Assembly (NCBI GenBank): GCA_947482115.1
Contig: CANKII010000004.1
Location: 1 to 64,000, forward strand
Direction: 5' to 3'
From: Fibrobacterota bacterium
GTDB taxonomy: Bacteria; Fibrobacterota; Fibrobacteria; UBA11236
Length of the DNA stretch: 64,000 nucleotides
The notes under the pieces were generated by a model. The model made no database searches, was not told the DNA's origin, and worked only from the letters and a program-made list of their open reading frames with translations. The translations under genes were made by a program, and so were the position numbers. This document shows positions 6,001 through 37,005 of the stretch, one piece after another; position 1 is the first letter of the stretch; each line of letters begins with the position of its first letter.

Positions 6001-7325
6001 AATGAGAAACCCGCAGCCAAGGTTGCAGTATTCGCAGTAATGGCCGTTCCACCATCATAAGAGGCTGGATTGCTGGAATAGGTAATGCCTGAGGGAGGAT
6101 TAGTATTGCCGTTTTGTGTCACTCCCAACGTTAGAGCGGTTGCGCCGGGTTTTTGGGTCTGATAGCTGAGCTTGACCCAATTCGAATCTCGCGATGCATT
6201 TGCAAATTCCAATTCATCCATGGACCCAGCAAAGGCGGAGTCCGTGGTGCTTTCGAATGCCCGACCGATGAATGCATAATTACGCGACACAGACGGTAAA
6301 GGGCTTGCAGCCGCGGCAATGATCGTACCCGCGCTGTTTAGAACTCCGTTGTAATACTTGTAAAGAGTGTCCGACACCGGGCCTCGAGATACGACACAAG
6401 TGATGTGAATCCAAGTATTCAAGCTCAGGTTGCTACCACCGGTATTGCTTCCCACATAGGTATTGGTGCCTGCTGGGCTCGTGCTATAACGGAAATACAT
6501 CACAGACGCTGTGGTGGACGTGTTGCTTGGAATGGTTTGAAGCGCACCGGCTGGATTCGCTGCGCCAGGAGTGCTGGATTGAAGATGGAAGTGCCTTTTG
6601 TTCTGACCAAAGCGCGTATGATTAGCCCAAAAGGAAACAGTAAACTTCCCATTCGGAAAATCATACGCATTAGTGGCCGTACCACTGTCGATCATCATGT
6701 AGGTGCCGTTTCCACCTGTCAGGGTAACCGTGCCACCCAAAAGAGTATCGGCCGATCCAATGACACCATTTTTTACGGGATTATAACTGACCGGATAATT
6801 GCGAGGTTTTGCCGTGAGCGTGGAATAAAGCGTGGAGTTGGGGCGTGGATTGAGCCCCGATGTATCGCCCATGTGCCAGACACTTCTAAATCCATTCGCA
6901 GTATCGAACACGATGGGACCATTCGACTCCGACGTGGCCAAAGCTTTTCCCCACCACATACGAAACTTGGTATTGCTGTTTCCCACCACGCTGGGAACCA
7001 ACACCCAGATCTCCGCAGCGGAAGCAGTCCAACGCTCGATTTGATAGGAAAGCGCGGTGTTTCCAGTGGAATCGGAAAAACGCAAATCCGCACCACCCGC
7101 AAGAGCCGCCGAAAGCACATTGCTCCCGTGGGCTGAATCGGCATTGGTCAAGCGAACCAGAACGGGAAAATTGGCCACACTTCCAATAACGTTGGCACCA
7201 CCACTGGTGGTATTGATGGTAACGTCCCGGTAATTGGACCAGGTATCGTAGGGACCCGCGAATGCTGAAACAGACAATGCCAAAACAGCCAGAAGTCCGA
7301 TTTTTTTACCGAGATTCATCTTCAT
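1..7325 (-). CDS. Giant secreted DUF2341/LamG-like multidomain protein (3' end outside the window)
   Basis: One open frame runs without a stop from the ATG at 7325 to the window edge, about 2441 codons; the C-terminus is missing. AAGGAGG lies about 9 bases before the ATG, and the product opens with a signal peptide (MKMNLGKKIGLLAVLALSVS, cleavage after AFA). Four similar modules follow. Each begins with a DUF2341-like block carrying FPVLVRL or VPVLVRL (near 7165, 4915, 3250 and 1130), continues with an MYWG-type strand and a VWHLGD or VWHMN turn, and ends in a concanavalin-like LamG fold. Between modules are runs of roughly 85-residue putative Ig repeats (LPAGL..NSTTGVISGTPT pattern): about four at 6110-5030, two at 3900-3360 and four at 2290-1240. 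This architecture is typical of surface adhesins or polysaccharide-binding proteins; the ligand is unknown. No catalytic motif was seen. Confidence 0.85.
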   Translation of the reverse strand, partial: MKMNLGKKIGLLAVLALSVSAFAGPYDTWSNYRDVTINTTSGGANVIGSVANFPVLVRLTNADSAHGSNVLSAALAGGADLRFSDSTGNTALSYQIERWTASAAEIWVLVPSVVGNSNTKFRMWWGKALATSESNGPIVFDTANGFRSVWHMGDTSGLNPRPNSTLYSTLTAKPRNYPVSYNPVKNGVIGSADTLLGGTVTLTGGNGTYMMIDSGTATNAYDFPNGKFTVSFWANHTRFGQNKRHFHLQSSTPGAANPAGALQTIPSNTSTTASVMYFRYSTSPAGTNTYVGSNTGGSNLSLNTWIHITCVVSRGPVSDTLYKYYNGVLNSAGTIIAAAASPLPSVSRNYAFIGRAFESTTDSAFAGSMDELEFANASRDSNWVKLSYQTQKPGATALTLGVTQNGNTNPPSGITYSSNPASYDGGTAITANTATLAAGFSFNWTVSPALPTGLTLNATTGTISGTPTVATAAANYQINATNSFGADSMLLNITVNGVAPFNLVYSNTTYTFGASLSSTTVTPSVNKGGLVATYTSDPLPAGLSIDGTTGIISGTPTTGTATATYNVYVTNTAGSTSIPLSITVLNPIATFTYDTHTLTLGKNVAMTADNATVTGTDPFTPVKFFVSPALPAGLTLDSLTGVVSGTPTTAQTSTKYTFTAKNGITVFNLVDSLFISVPNAPTGLTYSANAPIYEDGQAIATNSPSPSGTTPFLPVTYAVTAGSLPAGLTLNADGTITGTVSGGAASYNVSITASNPSGSATDSTMVITVLGSEDYSGWTYNKSMTLNTSTLAAGVTTAQTNFPVLVRLTGKHATVFNQAQSNGADIRFTNGSGTHLPYQIERWSFVPGDTSAAIWVAADNVAASNTTTIKMYWGNGSATSRSNGAAVFSSGYVGVWHLGDTSGIAPRPNAVAGAPMATPSNDAGTFGGGSYVIPNGVIGKADTLRAGGTRGAPAATSDYLNIGNGASTTTNGNNSYAGYSNFSTGLTYSLWIKAGAPTAANSYLMELANSSEGVNNIQLFMNTNVTGATNTIRYQHLATGTSAGTKTSSATFTASSTAPVWQHIVVTVGTGTTPTVNLYQNGATFFTAANQTAAIDNILRTNVWIGKSNYGADPYFRGTFDEPEISNVVRSSDWIRLTYKNQKTGVTPVFDLSYSNPNASYTFGSPITANSPSVTGNATRYSVSPTLPAGLTLSSSTGAITGTPSGTASSATDYTITALSDSAWSTTATVNITVLPAAPTVAYAPTSVSYRASDIISKLAPVIVSGGETPVITVSPSLPSGLSLNSATGVITGAPTSAQGAADYVFTATNSSGSSMDTVNITVTAGEDYSAWTYHSDMTLNTTTAGANVSTGVGSVPVLVRLTGKHAVVFNQAQSTGADIRFTNAGGSHLAYQMERWSFAPGDTSAAIWVLADTVAGNSTTNVRMYWGNGSATDDSRPTTVYDTANNFRAVWHMNEPSGNINDATSNAFTGVNTGTTSAASQIGTGRSFTGTTSSYIAIDKSGRDDGGANTNNAKAGKLDSLLPAFTVSMWFNANSWGTAVPKLICRGSSTIKYAFQGTNPGLVFNQNANIASPKTTADPSIGAWHLVHGTYTAAGVDSLYMDGAFIANRTGGTRATDCSPYELIIGARNTSTAYPPASVAEPFNGLIDEVRVQSTPRSANWIKLEYVNQKPGVTPLFNLNYPVSSPAYTSLIPIPTDSPTVVGNATRFAIDSALPAGLNFSTTTGAITGAPSAEFPPRIYTVTAYGDSAWSTTTTLNVTVNANAGPPSNLAYSPSTLLFGANVPGTSSTPTVITGDTTVRIFSVSPPLPAGLSINSSTGVISGTPTTAQSTQPDTVTFTNAFGSTSTVVNIHIAAVPNNLHYATNPAVFVKGTTIVNDSPTVTDTVTSYSIDTTSIKKLPTGIAFSKTTGIFSGTPTAVIATTNYIVTATNLVGSDTETVTLTVNPAAPTALNYAASASYQIGDAVSITPTFTGEGLTFSVSPSLPSGLSLNSSTGVISGTAAATALATNYIITTANATGSLMDTINITVAPGDDYSQWAYTADLTLNTTVSAAGVATGQGKFPVLVRLTSKHLAVFQQALSTGNDIRFANVSGTHLPYEVERWSFATGDTGAAIWVQADTVTAGGATTIKMYWGKSDAVNHSSSSAVFDTAKGFQGVWHLGETTGDTAHDATVRKFHGTPGNTGTFTGNSLPVDTAGMIGKGKSLRMSGGTSGAYFVMDGSAPGSVTTAGAGNVLSFSEAGPYTISTWVRVYNNTTSGMIATKGDPYYQLAKRNSGSVWEFVHNNGTRPGGTSLAIGAGNVGVWKHVVGVRSTTGDAGAALYVDGVLATFTATTEANIALNQTFPFTLGRDPTSTATRYLTGALDEVEVSNVARSADFVKLSFKTQKATTAPVFALTYPVTTANFNQNAAITADSPSVMGTSTRFTISPTLPTGLTFST

Positions 7326-7701
7326 GTTTCCAGTCCTCCTTAGACCCTAAATCCTGTTGCCCGTGAAACGCCACGGACAAAACAAGCCACTACTCACACA
7401 CAAACAGGGGGAGGAAAAGTCCAACCCCTCTCTGAGAACATTTTTAAAAGACACAAATCGCAAAAAAGGAAAACTTTCCAGACTGAGCATCCGGATTTCA
7501 GGAATATATCTCCGGATGAATGCGGGATGTTATCCTTTCCATCTTCCAGTCCTGTTTATAGCACAAATTGCGGAAAATTATTTCCAACCCTTTGGTTTTA
7601 TGGAAATTACGCCAAATAGGGCAAAAAACTAACTGCCCTTACCAATGATGATCACGATGTCATCATTCACGCATGTTTTAAATGAGAGTTACCACAGTGA
7701 T
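7326..7701. other. Intergenic region upstream of the giant gene
   Basis: These 376 bases hold no convincing gene. A 91-codon plus-strand frame (7357-7632) has no ribosome site and no recognisable sequence. The stretch is more AT-rich than its surroundings and must carry the promoter of the giant gene. A perfect 8-bp inverted repeat, AATGATGA-N8-TCATCATT, lies at 7644-7667, about 35 bases after the stop of the Mur-ligase gene. It could be an operator or weak terminator, but no T-tract follows it on the minus strand. Confidence 0.5.
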
Positions 7702-9093
7702 TTAAAGGAATTTGTTCCGAATCAACCGAAATAATTCTTCGGCAAACCGGCCCAAATCCGGGTCCCGAGCTCCCATGCTGATGACGAAGTCTCCAGACTG
7801 GGTCTCCCCTGCCACCGCTTCCAAAACTTCCACCTTGGTCGGCAGAAAACGACCGATGGATTTTTGCGTATTGAGGTAGGCGATCAAATCCGCCGAAGAA
7901 ATACTTTTGTCCGCCGTGCCGCCGACGTAATAAATCTCGGGAAAGAAAACCCGATCGTTCACATCCAGCACTTCGGCAATCGAGTCCATGATATCCCGTC
8001 CCACCAATTTCATCGGCGCAAATCCATGCGGATGAAAGATCGCGAGCACGCGGCGGTTTTCCCCGTGCAGCTTTCCCTTCGCGGTTTCCAATGCGGCCTT
8101 TACTTTCGCGGGATTATGGGCAAAATCATCGACCACGGTAATCCCGCGAACTTCGCCAACTCGAATGAAGCGGCGTTCTACGCCCTTGAATTGTCGCAAA
8201 CCCTTCGCGCAAGCCGCGAAGGAAATTCCCAGGAGTTTCCCTAACGCAATGGCAGCCAGCGCATTTTCAACGTTGTAGCGACCGGGAACATTCAATTCAA
8301 AATCAACACCGCCCAGACTAAACCGGGAATTCCATTCCTCCAAAACCAAATTCCCAAGTCGTAGCCCGTCGACGGATTCGCGATCAAACAACATGTCGCC
8401 TTCATGCTTGAAAACCATGCAACGCGGTTCCCCGGAGTTGATCACGGCGCGTTTGCTTTGGGAACGAAAGGTTTGGAACAAGGGCATGAGCGCTTCGATT
8501 TCCTGATGATCCTTGTCGATGTTCAACAGGACTCCCACTTCAGGCCGGTAGCGCGTCAAACTGCCGTCGGATTCATCCGCTTCAATCACCAGCCATTCCC
8601 CGGAACCTGCAGCGGCATTACCCAACAGTCCACGCGATTCCAGCGAAATCAGATTGGCACCGGTGATCAGCGAAGGCGCGAGTCCTCCAGCTTCCAGCAC
8701 ATGATACATCATGCCGGCGACGGTGGATTTTCCGGAAGTTCCGGCTACGGCAACCGTTTTCTTCCCGGAACAAATGCGGGCCAGCAATTCGGATCGATGC
8801 AGAAGCGGAATCCCCAAATCGCGGGCGCGGCGGATTTCAGGATTGTCAGATTCAATGGCCGTGGAAACAATCAGCGCAGTATGCGTTGCATCCAAACCAC
8901 TGCCGTCCTGCGGAAGAATTTGGATTCCGTGTCGTTCAAAATAGGCGCGTTTTTCCTGTTCCGTTCCGCGATCAAAAACACGGTCGGAACCGGAAACGGC
9001 ATGTCCGGCAAAACGCAGATATTGGGCCAGTGCGCTCATGCCGCCGCCCGCGAGGCCGGAGAAATGACAATAATTCAGGGAGGGTTCGGACAC
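7702..9093 (-). CDS. MurC/Mpl-family Mur ligase
   Basis: 463 residues with the three-domain Mur-ligase layout. The N-terminal Rossmann-like domain has GLAGGGMSALA and a GSD at about residue 36. The central ATPase domain has a P-loop reading GTSGKST (about residue 117), EADESDGSL and NIDKDH. The C-terminal domain has DDFAHNPAKV and ends SMGARD. MurC and Mpl add L-alanine or a recycled tripeptide to UDP-MurNAc in the cytoplasm. The domain 1 start resembles MurC/Mpl rather than MurD, E or F. The P-loop is unusual: canonical MurC/Mpl read GTHGKTT. The gene is not in a division-wall cluster here, so a recycling (Mpl-like) or specialised ligase is as likely as the essential MurC; I therefore give no symbol. 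It is divergent from lolA. Confidence 0.8.
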   Translation of the reverse strand: MSEPSLNYCHFSGLAGGGMSALAQYLRFAGHAVSGSDRVFDRGTEQEKRAYFERHGIQILPQDGSGLDATHTALIVSTAIESDNPEIRRARDLGIPLLHRSELLARICSGKKTVAVAGTSGKSTVAGMMYHVLEAGGLAPSLITGANLISLESRGLLGNAAAGSGEWLVIEADESDGSLTRYRPEVGVLLNIDKDHQEIEALMPLFQTFRSQSKRAVINSGEPRCMVFKHEGDMLFDRESVDGLRLGNLVLEEWNSRFSLGGVDFELNVPGRYNVENALAAIALGKLLGISFAACAKGLRQFKGVERRFIRVGEVRGITVVDDFAHNPAKVKAALETAKGKLHGENRRVLAIFHPHGFAPMKLVGRDIMDSIAEVLDVNDRVFFPEIYYVGGTADKSISSADLIAYLNTQKSIGRFLPTKVEVLEAVAGETQSGDFVISMGARDPDLGRFAEELFRLIRNKFL

Positions 9094-34128: not shown

Positions 34129-34297
34129 GCGGAAGATAAACCTAAATGGCAAAGCCTTTGCTCACAAGCCCACTCTAATTGAGCCAAGCAGTCATTTTAA
34201 GCAAAGGGCTATCAAAAACACTCAAATTGAAATGACGCAACTATGCCTTCAATCACTGATAATTCTCTATTATTGAAGAAAACTCGAGGGACCTACT

Positions 34298-35434
34298 ATG
34301 AAGATTTTGGAATATCAATTCAAGGAAGGGACTGAAGCTGGTTGGGAATTCGATAAAATTCAAGCTTCAGATATCAATGTTTTAGTCGGGCAAACGGCGA
34401 CAGGAAAAACTCGATTTCTAAATACCATTTTCAACGCTGGCCTTGTAGCTGCAAGAGACACGAAATTAACCAGTGTTGGAACTTGGGATATCAAATTTAA
34501 TCATAATGATGCAGACTACTTCTGGCACGTTCAATCTGAAAAAACATCTCCTACTGAGGTTAGCATTGTAAACGAAGTTTTAAAAAAAACAGACGGAGAT
34601 AAAGAAGAAGAGCTGATTAAAAGAGACTTGGCAGGATTTTATTTTAAGGGTAGCCCGATACCCAAACTTTCACAAAACCATTCTGCGATACAACTTTTAA
34701 AAGAAGAAGAAACAATAAAACCGATTTTTGAGGGTTTCGGAAGAATTGCGAAAAGGTATTTCTCCGGGGACGACCTCAAGAAACAAGCTAGAGATGAAAT
34801 CATCGACACCAAAACTAAGGAGCTTCTAGACAAGGCGAAGAACAAAAAAACTCTTTTGTTTCGGTTTGCGATCGGCAACAAGCTTAACCTACTACAAGAA
34901 TACTATCCGGAAAATTTTAAAAGGGTTTGCGACGCCTTCAAAAACGTTTTCCCGTTTGTTGAAAGTTGCGCAATAACAACCAAAGATCGTACTGCGGAAA
35001 CTTTAAATGTTATGGCAGATTTAAAGATTAAGATATTCGCAGTTAAAGAAAAAGGTGGAAAGGAATGGATATCATACGATCAGTTATCGTCCGGCATGCA
35101 AAAGGTGATCCTATTCCTAGCTGATATTGAAACGCTGCCAGCTGGATCGATTTACCTAATTGACGAATACGAAAACTCTCTCGGCGTCAATGCTATTGAT
35201 TTTTTGCCTGATTACATAGCAACGGTCAACTATGACATTCAGTTCTTTATTACGAGCCACCACCCATACATCATCAATAATTTTGAGCCGAAAGATTGGT
35301 TTATTTTTCACAGAAAAGGGAAAAAGGTTAGCATCAAATATGGTGCCGAGAACGCTAAGAAATTCAGCAAATCAAAACAAGAAGCGTTTACGCAACTCCT
35401 CAACGATCCGTTTTATGCTGAAGGTATTGAATGA
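34298..35434 (+). CDS. ABC/AAA-type ATPase of a two-gene defence-like islet
   Basis: 378 residues. Walker A is GQTATGKT at 31-38, the ABC-like signature LSSGMQ is at 263-268, Walker B IYLIDE at 285-290 and the switch His in ITSHHPYII at 318-326. This is the AAA_15/AAA_21 OLD-like layout, without a TOPRIM domain in the same chain. The central part (70-250) is charged and helical with no recognised domain. Its TGA overlaps the ATG of the next gene. Both genes are strikingly AT-rich with Lys/Asn/Ile codons unlike the GC-richer neighbours, which suggests recent transfer. The layout recalls PARIS (AriA/AriB), RloA/RloB and OLD-type anti-phage systems; the exact family is unclear. A GAGGGA ribosome site precedes the ATG. 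Confidence 0.8.
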   Translation: MKILEYQFKEGTEAGWEFDKIQASDINVLVGQTATGKTRFLNTIFNAGLVAARDTKLTSVGTWDIKFNHNDADYFWHVQSEKTSPTEVSIVNEVLKKTDGDKEEELIKRDLAGFYFKGSPIPKLSQNHSAIQLLKEEETIKPIFEGFGRIAKRYFSGDDLKKQARDEIIDTKTKELLDKAKNKKTLLFRFAIGNKLNLLQEYYPENFKRVCDAFKNVFPFVESCAITTKDRTAETLNVMADLKIKIFAVKEKGGKEWISYDQLSSGMQKVILFLADIETLPAGSIYLIDEYENSLGVNAIDFLPDYIATVNYDIQFFITSHHPYIINNFEPKDWFIFHRKGKKVSIKYGAENAKKFSKSKQEAFTQLLNDPFYAEGIE

Positions 35435-36111
35435 GATGGTATGTGGTCGTAGAGGGACTGAAAACTGAGAAGGCGATATACGACTCCTGGATAAAGCATT
35501 TGAACCCAGCAATGCAGAATTGCGGCACCTATAATGCAGTCCAGGATAACTCATATTTCATTGTGGCCGGTTATGGTTATCCAAATTATTTGCAGGTAAT
35601 AAAATCAGCTATTGATGATATCAATGCCAACAAAGATATTGACGAACTTGTTATTGGTGTCGATTCAGAAAATATGGAACATGCCGAAAAAAATAAAGAG
35701 ATCCAAGATGTGGTTGACGCAAACCCTTGTCATGCTACGGTGCACATTATTGTGCAACATTTCTGCATTGAAACTTGGCTACTAGGGAACAAGAAAGTAA
35801 TTCCAAGATCGCCTCAGAATAAAAAGCTAAAGGAATACAAAAAGCTTTGGGATGTCGTCCAAAAAGATCCAGAAGGCCTCCCACCTAACGTAAGTGAGGG
35901 GTTAAACAGAGCTCAATTTGCCTTAAAATATTTAAGAACTGCTTTAGTAGAAAAAGGACAATCCTACTCGAAAAATTCACCGGGGATTTCTCTGGATTTG
36001 ACCTACCTAGATCAGCTTAAAAGAAGAGTTTCCGAAACAACCCACATTCCAAGTTTTAAGAAATTCCTTGACGTTTTTGAAGCCAAAAATTCTCCGGCCA
36101 TCTCAAACTAA
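35431..36111 (+). CDS. TOPRIM/RloB-like partner protein
   Basis: 226 residues, overlapping the ATPase gene (ATGA). The first strand and turn WYVVVEGLKTEKAIYDSWI resemble the TOPRIM start, with the catalytic-type Glu at 8. ELVIGVDSEN (D78, E80) fits the second acidic strand of a TOPRIM nuclease. QHFCIETWLLGNKK (E114) resembles the NPCFExWLL motif of RloB-like proteins. If it is a nuclease it would act on DNA or RNA when released or activated by the ATPase, as AriB does in PARIS. No metal site is proven and the family is not certain. It ends 3 bases before the next, GC-rich gene. Confidence 0.65.
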   Translation: MRWYVVVEGLKTEKAIYDSWIKHLNPAMQNCGTYNAVQDNSYFIVAGYGYPNYLQVIKSAIDDINANKDIDELVIGVDSENMEHAEKNKEIQDVVDANPCHATVHIIVQHFCIETWLLGNKKVIPRSPQNKKLKEYKKLWDVVQKDPEGLPPNVSEGLNRAQFALKYLRTALVEKGQSYSKNSPGISLDLTYLDQLKRRVSETTHIPSFKKFLDVFEAKNSPAISN

Positions 36112-36114
36112 TCA

Positions 36115-37005
36115 ATGAAACCTTTCTTCCAACTCGTCCGCATCCCCACCGTCTTCAGCGCCTTCAGCAACGTCTACGCAGGTTACTGGATCGGCGGCGG
36201 AGTCGCGTCTCCGAAATCCCTGATCCTCGGCCTTATCGCCGGAGGACTGTACCTCATGGCCGGAATGGCGTTGAACGACATCGCCGATTACAAGGTGGAC
36301 AAGGAAGAAAGACCTGATCGTCCATTACCGTCCGGCGCAATTTCTTTATCAACGGCCTGGATGGTGACACTCGGAATGTTTGCGCTCGCATTGATATGCC
36401 AGTGGTTTGCAAACCCCGTTGCCGCAGTCCTCGGCGTATGCCTTGTCCTAGCCATATTCTGCTACAACTTCGTGTTCAAGGGAACCTTTCTCGGCCCATT
36501 GACCATGGCAAAATGTCGGGCGTTGAATTTGCTCTGCGGCATCGCATTATGCGCCGACGGGCTCAGCGATTTCTTCTTTCTCCCCTTCCACACCTATTGG
36601 GCCATCCTGTCGCTTTGGGCCTACATCATCCTCGTCACCTATTTGGCTCGCGACGAAGTCAAGGGAAACTCGTCGATGCGTGTGCGGATTTTCTTCGTTG
36701 GCATCGCAGTATGGGCCGGATTATGGATCGGCTTCGCCGCCTTCCATTACTCCTACCTGTCCTATGTCCTGCTTGCCGTGCTGCTCTTCCATCTTTACAT
36801 GCTCTCCGCTCCGATTCGGAACCTTCGCGCAAATCCCGCCGTGCCTTCCGCAACCGGAAGAACCATTGGCGCATTGCTGCGCACATTGCCGATGACGGAT
36901 GTCATCGGTATGTTGGGAGCGGGAGTGTTTTGGCCTTGGGCTTTGGCCGGACTGGCATGGATGCTGCCCGGGCGATTTCTCGCCAAACGATTTTACAGCA
37001 CCTAA
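36115..37005 (+). CDS. UbiA-family prenyltransferase, second copy
   Basis: 296 residues with about nine membrane segments. The Asp-rich motif 1 is ALNDIADYKVDKEERPDRPL, and the second loop carries YLARDEVKGNSSMRVRI, a weaker motif 2 (DEVKG in place of DxxxD). It belongs to the polyprenyl-transferring UbiA family, close in layout to proteins annotated for 4-hydroxybenzoate or related aromatic acceptors; the substrate is unknown. It starts 3 bases after the AT-rich islet but its base composition is that of the chromosome, so it is probably native and has lost or exchanged its own upstream region. Confidence 0.8.
   Translation: MKPFFQLVRIPTVFSAFSNVYAGYWIGGGVASPKSLILGLIAGGLYLMAGMALNDIADYKVDKEERPDRPLPSGAISLSTAWMVTLGMFALALICQWFANPVAAVLGVCLVLAIFCYNFVFKGTFLGPLTMAKCRALNLLCGIALCADGLSDFFFLPFHTYWAILSLWAYIILVTYLARDEVKGNSSMRVRIFFVGIAVWAGLWIGFAAFHYSYLSYVLLAVLLFHLYMLSAPIRNLRANPAVPSATGRTIGALLRTLPMTDVIGMLGAGVFWPWALAGLAWMLPGRFLAKRFYST

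Follow-up and report, generated by a model that had tools for sequence, protein, structure and literature searches.

A foreign two-gene islet in a Fibrobacterota genome encodes a probable anti-phage module of the split OLD type

A low-GC islet in the genome of a Fibrobacterota bacterium carries two coupled, horizontally acquired genes that probably form a split OLD-type module directed against phages (or mobile elements), in which an ATPase sensor would activate a separate TOPRIM nuclease. The islet occupies positions 34129..36114 (unstranded) of the window, by which we mean the whole 64,000-nucleotide stretch of DNA that was analysed. OLD ABC ATPases are already known to be associated with TOPRIM nucleases (PMC12839542, PMC10568477), and the pair therefore varies a known theme; very probably it belongs, as an unnamed branch, to an established family of bacterial immune systems. 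Not every member of the OLD family serves defence, as Cran1 acts in the cell cycle (PMC12796447). We describe here a pair that is conserved, that keeps the catalytic residues of both proteins, that has been transferred horizontally and whose relatives are placed in a phage defence hotspot.

The islet was delimited by GC content and by comparison with congeners. Gene 1 (34298..35434, plus strand) encodes an ABC-type ATPase of the OLD/AAA_21 group of 378 aa, assigned from its open reading frame, PF13304, profile and model, and gene 2 (35431..36111, plus strand) encodes an RloB/HEC-01B-like TOPRIM protein of 226 aa, a predicted two-metal nuclease, assigned from its open reading frame, hhalign, conserved site and model. 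The two are coupled by an ATGA start/stop overlap (35431..35434, plus strand), a spacing of -4 nt that is also the commonest among relatives. Both open reading frames and their position between lolE and a UbiA gene are as an earlier sequence-only reading of this DNA had described them. The unusual composition that it reported was likewise borne out, with a GC content of 38.3% in gene 1 and 39.2% in gene 2 against 53.4 +/- 1.9% in the 40 other open reading frames of the window (z-scores of -8.0 and -7.5), none of which falls below 49%, and with GC3 z-scores of -3.2 and -3.1 against the same 40 frames.

The islet is flanked by lolE on the minus strand and by ubiA (UbiA family) on the plus strand. 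In two congeneric genomes lolE and ubiA adjoin each other in divergent orientation, with 128 bp (G001) and approximately 145 bp (G003) between them, and this empty site identifies the islet as an insertion; the two-gene islet is a foreign, horizontally acquired insert. No flanking repeats, tRNA genes, Rfam elements or mobility gene that would explain the insertion were found at the islet ends, and promoter and terminator scans gave matches no better than chance. The ubiA flank was considered as an insertion hotspot and dropped, since the upstream gene in a further genome (G002) resembles, by sequence reading, a cyclopropane-fatty-acid-synthase-type methyltransferase, which fits ordinary rearrangement. 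Only three bases separate the last stop of the islet from the ubiA start codon (window 36111-36115), where the congeners have an intergenic region of 128-145 bp, and ubiA may therefore now depend on transcription of the islet.

Gene 1 has the Walker A motif, signature, Walker B motif and switch histidine by which the ABC ATPase of split OLD-type modules is recognised, and all of the motifs that the sequence-only reading had named are present. Walker A is GQTATGKT (residues 31-38), the signature is LSSGMQ (263-268), Walker B is IYLIDE (285-290) and the switch histidines are H321-H322 in TSHHPY, with a helical insert at residues 130-217 or thereabouts. Across 47 homologues there is no variation at G31, G36, K37, S264, G266, D289, E290, H321 or H322. 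The protein scores 47.3 bits with PF13304 (AAA_21) against a cut-off of 27, and its best PADLOC match is AbiLi (1.5e-17), with AriA (4.5e-16) and PtuA (1.4e-14) also matching. When PDB sequences were searched with the gene 1 profile, AriA and retron/Septu PtuA chains came first, the AriA chains being the best matches, and the AlphaFold model (pLDDT 89.2) resembles Rad50/SMC and PtuA heads.

Gene 2 is more divergent at the level of the single sequence. It scores 20.1 bits with the RloB Pfam model, below the cut-off of 31.5, and DUF4276 is likewise below cut-off, but among its relatives matching at E up to 1 RloB is found in 43 of 49 and DUF4276 in 36 of 49. With hhalign the gene 2 profile aligns to RloB at E 3e-9, around the D-x-D and N-x-C-x-E motifs, and to HEC-01B at E 1.6e-7 over 199 columns. 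DUF4435 gave no Pfam match, either in the window protein or among the families listed for the 49 members, and an hhalign E-value of 0.73. In PADLOC the window protein matches PDC-M38B/HEC-01B at E 0.012-0.025 only (the HEC-01B models at 0.016-0.025), and AbiLii is not among the matches listed for it. The gene 2 AlphaFold model (pLDDT 94.7) gave nothing significant with Foldseek in the PDB or viral libraries, the best viral match being an RloB-like protein at E 0.013, and when gene 2 or its profile was compared with the sequences of PDB chains, chance matches alone were returned. A TOPRIM fold for gene 2 is therefore well supported by profile and motif rather than by structure search.

At the sequence level gene 2 has a complete OLD-type two-metal TOPRIM site, made up of E8, E13, D78, D/E80, C112-x-E114 and K181. 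Among 49 homologues E8, D78, C112 and E114 are invariant and position 80 is always D or E, while E13 and K181 each occur in 48. The sequence-only reading had picked out E8, D78 and E80, which are indeed conserved, but it had left out E13, C112, E114 and K181, whose conservation equals that of E8 and D78. BpOLD, a class 2 OLD nuclease, binds metal A through E400, D455 and D457 and metal B through E404, T506 and E508, with K562 as the catalytic lysine (PMC6755086). Mapped by motif order and context, not by superposed structures, E8 of gene 2 corresponds to E400, E13 to E404, D78/E80 to D455/D457, C112/E114 to T506/E508 and K181 to K562. FCIETWLLGN, which had been noted merely as a motif, is present, and its C-x-E is probably part of the catalytic site, at the second metal.

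Relatives of gene 2 were found in 7 plasmid records (six genera), in at least 73 genome loci, in 5 viral contigs and in 1 short phage-labelled contig; the genome loci came from a profile scan, and a single-sequence scan of genome contigs with gene 2 returned none. They span at least 12 phyla according to record labels, some of which belong to metagenome bins and may be mis-assigned. An ATPase with the expected motifs lies directly upstream of gene 2 in 83 of 86 loci as judged by script, usually at a spacing of -4 to +15 nt. Of the three exceptions, two (L029 and L055) start at a contig edge and in the third (L028) the same ATPase survives with an internal deletion, so that an ATPase or its remnant is directly upstream in all 84 relatives whose upstream gene can be judged. 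The linkage on which the sequence-only reading had made its proposal depend is accordingly conserved. Across 47 loci the pairwise distances between gene 1 proteins correlate with those between gene 2 proteins (Mantel r 0.866; maximum of 2000 permutations 0.33), and gene 1 and gene 2 therefore travel together. Their distribution is patchy: of the 151 genomes in the phylum sample 2 have the pair, and within the genus and family it is missing from every other member sampled. In the L028 copy (L028:6549-7690) the in-frame internal deletion leaves only the N and C ends of the ATPase, and gene 2 stays open.

In two loci (L084 and L087) the pair is flanked by the P2-type replication gene A on one side and by the portal gene on the other. 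The DNA of the L084 pair is identical to that of a pair in E. coli strain 23CRST009, where the RefSeq annotation places it in a P2-family prophage between the replication endonuclease and portal genes; the window proteins share 31% and 32% identity with this pair. This gpA-gpQ region is a tested defence hotspot, which in P2 itself holds old and tin (PMC9122126, Rousset et al.). Further relatives are carried by small plasmids of 10-15 kb, including those of Acinetobacter and Proteus, and a Planktothrix relative lies near a XamI-type restriction-modification pair. On the Acinetobacter plasmids type II toxin-antitoxin genes lie near the pair. We infer a defence role for the pair from genomic location, because its relatives are found at phage and plasmid sites known for anti-virus functions. 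On chromosomes of the sampled genomes the neighbours are mostly housekeeping genes, with a minority of methyltransferases, phage genes and other ATPase defence genes, and the general defence-island signal around the relatives is weak.

Methylovorus pMsip02 (L003, NC_012972.1), which is filed as a plasmid, encodes a Zot-family protein, a capsid protein, DUF2523 and an integrase, with the pair as cargo, and looks like an inovirus-type replicon. The 10-kb Proteus terrae plasmid NZ_CP152081.1 (L007) has two copies of the module, at 1082-2949 and 6688-8554; in the second the ATPase is annotated as two open reading frames, and the gene 2 protein is identical. A small Acinetobacter pittii plasmid (L010, LC777725.1) carries the pair together with the carbapenemase gene blaOXA-72.

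In a maximum-likelihood tree of 67 ATPases the gene 1 family forms one clade (99/98), which is sister to, and not nested in, the four HEC-01A sequences sampled (100/92), the HEC-01A branch being long and thinly sampled. RloA (100/100) and the DUF4435-linked ATPases (100/98) form separate clades and the DUF4276-linked ATPases also stand apart, so that the tree splits five lineages of shared layout, namely DUF4435-linked, RloAB, DUF4276-linked, HEC-01 and that of the window pair. The source genome itself has a second pair of the same layout and of a different clade (G000:C2:65201-65743, L206), with an ATPase of 399 aa and a DUF4276 protein of 201 aa. Literature searches on HEC-01, or on DUF4276 with AAA in defence, found no paper in the library searched.

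Two alternative readings would assign the pair to a system that already has a name. PARIS is defined by an AAA_15 or AAA_21 ATPase beside a DUF4435 protein, DUF4435 defining AriB (PMC9122126). If the pair were a divergent PARIS, with gene 1 as AriA and gene 2 as AriB, it would be expected to respond to Ocr-like triggers and to cleave tRNA; the common layout of an ABC ATPase with a small TOPRIM partner, the rank of the AriA chains in the PDB search and the PADLOC AriA score all speak for this. It is improbable, however, and we reject PARIS membership, since AAA_21 is present but gene 2 is without DUF4435, and in the tree the DUF4435-linked ATPases are separate and the gene 1 family groups with HEC-01A. 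Less improbable, though still doubtful, is that the pair is simply RloAB/AbiL or HEC-01, both already in PADLOC, with scores weakened by divergence. AbiLi, the top match of gene 1, matches 47 of 47 relatives, AbiLii matches 45 of 49 at E up to 1 (best 4e-7), HEC-01B matches up to 29 of 49 (best 1.3e-7), and HEC-01A is the sister ATPase clade. Set against this are the marginal PDC-M38B/HEC-01B values and missing AbiLii match of the window gene 2, its low RloB score, and the clades that RloA and the gene 1 family each form on their own. RloAB/AbiL membership in particular was rejected by the ATPase tree and the sub-cut-off RloB score, despite AbiLi and AbiLii being among the best PADLOC matches. 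The sequence-only reading had tentatively placed the pair among OLD-like ATPases with an effector, outside the named subtypes, and that placement came through most of the checks it had proposed: by profile gene 2 goes with RloB and HEC-01B, while PARIS fails on DUF4435 and RloAB on the tree.

Other readings would take the pair out of phage defence altogether. The close coupling of the two genes, their frequency on small plasmids and prophages and the type II toxin-antitoxin genes near them in Acinetobacter would suit an addiction module that maintains a plasmid or prophage, but we think this unlikely, since a position in the P2 old-tin hotspot speaks for a role in keeping out other phages and since in the related PARIS system deletion of either gene is non-toxic (PMC9122126). 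The apparently intact gene 2 beside a gutted ATPase in L028 also argues against a gene 2 that is toxic on its own. That the pair does housekeeping work in DNA repair or RNA processing is very unlikely indeed: TOPRIM proteins and Rad50-like ATPases serve repair too, and in many genomes chromosomal copies sit among housekeeping genes, but this reading is opposed by the low GC content, the carriage on mobile elements, the rarity of the pair in the phylum sample and its absence from the other members of its genus and family that were sampled.

Under the preferred reading, that of a split OLD-type defence module, the gene 1 ABC ATPase would sense a sign of infection, and would hold gene 2 and then release or activate it. 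As a two-metal TOPRIM nuclease, gene 2 would then cleave nucleic acid, either RNA or DNA, and the cleavage would lead to growth arrest or to blocked phage replication. The nuclease activity, its control by the ATPase and the abortive outcome are proposed by analogy with PARIS, in which AriA releases AriB, which cuts tRNA (PMC11455837, PMC12409363). Two candidate activities of gene 2 are tRNA cutting, as in AriB, and DNA cutting, as in OLD and GajA. To our knowledge, PARIS is the only split ATPase-TOPRIM system whose mechanism is understood. The present lineage, which the E. coli P2-like prophage copy opens to tests in a standard laboratory strain, could show whether tRNA cleavage and ATPase-driven effector release go with the layout in general or are specific to PARIS. 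The lineage may well be a distinct, unnamed and widespread split OLD clade, present in at least 12 phyla, on plasmids, in P2-like prophages and on an inovirus-like replicon, with an effector sufficiently unlike AriB to act on another target and an ATPase, shorter than AriA, that may sense a different trigger.

Among the closest known systems is HEC-01, a PADLOC candidate composed of the ATPase HEC-01A and the DUF4276-like HEC-01B; it too is a two-gene ATPase with a TOPRIM-like partner, and its ATPases are the sister clade, but in the tree the window family is monophyletic and separate, with only four related HEC-01A rows sampled. RloAB/AbiL likewise joins an upstream ATPase to an RloB-type partner, and the gene 2 profile matches RloB, but the window protein lies under the RloB Pfam cut-off, the ATPase clade is distinct and the sampled RloA ATPases are longer (approximately 390-455 aa, against 378 for gene 1). 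PARIS shares the split ABC ATPase and TOPRIM nuclease as adjacent genes, with a similar ATPase, and differs in its DUF4435 effector and in the length of AriA (464 aa in the PDB chains). PtuA of Septu and of the retrons Ec78/Ec83 is related to gene 1 by PDB profile and PADLOC, but its effector is the HNH protein PtuB, not a TOPRIM protein. Gabija, an ATPase-TOPRIM fusion with a UvrD-like helicase, was rejected, as there are two separate proteins here and the next gene is ubiA. The OLD proteins of classes 1 and 2 (P2 Old, BpOLD, GajA) also combine an ABC ATPase with a TOPRIM domain and the two-metal site E, E, DxD, T/C-x-E, K; the window module differs from them in being two separate proteins with no helicase partner, and relatives of the window pair use the same P2 hotspot as old-tin.
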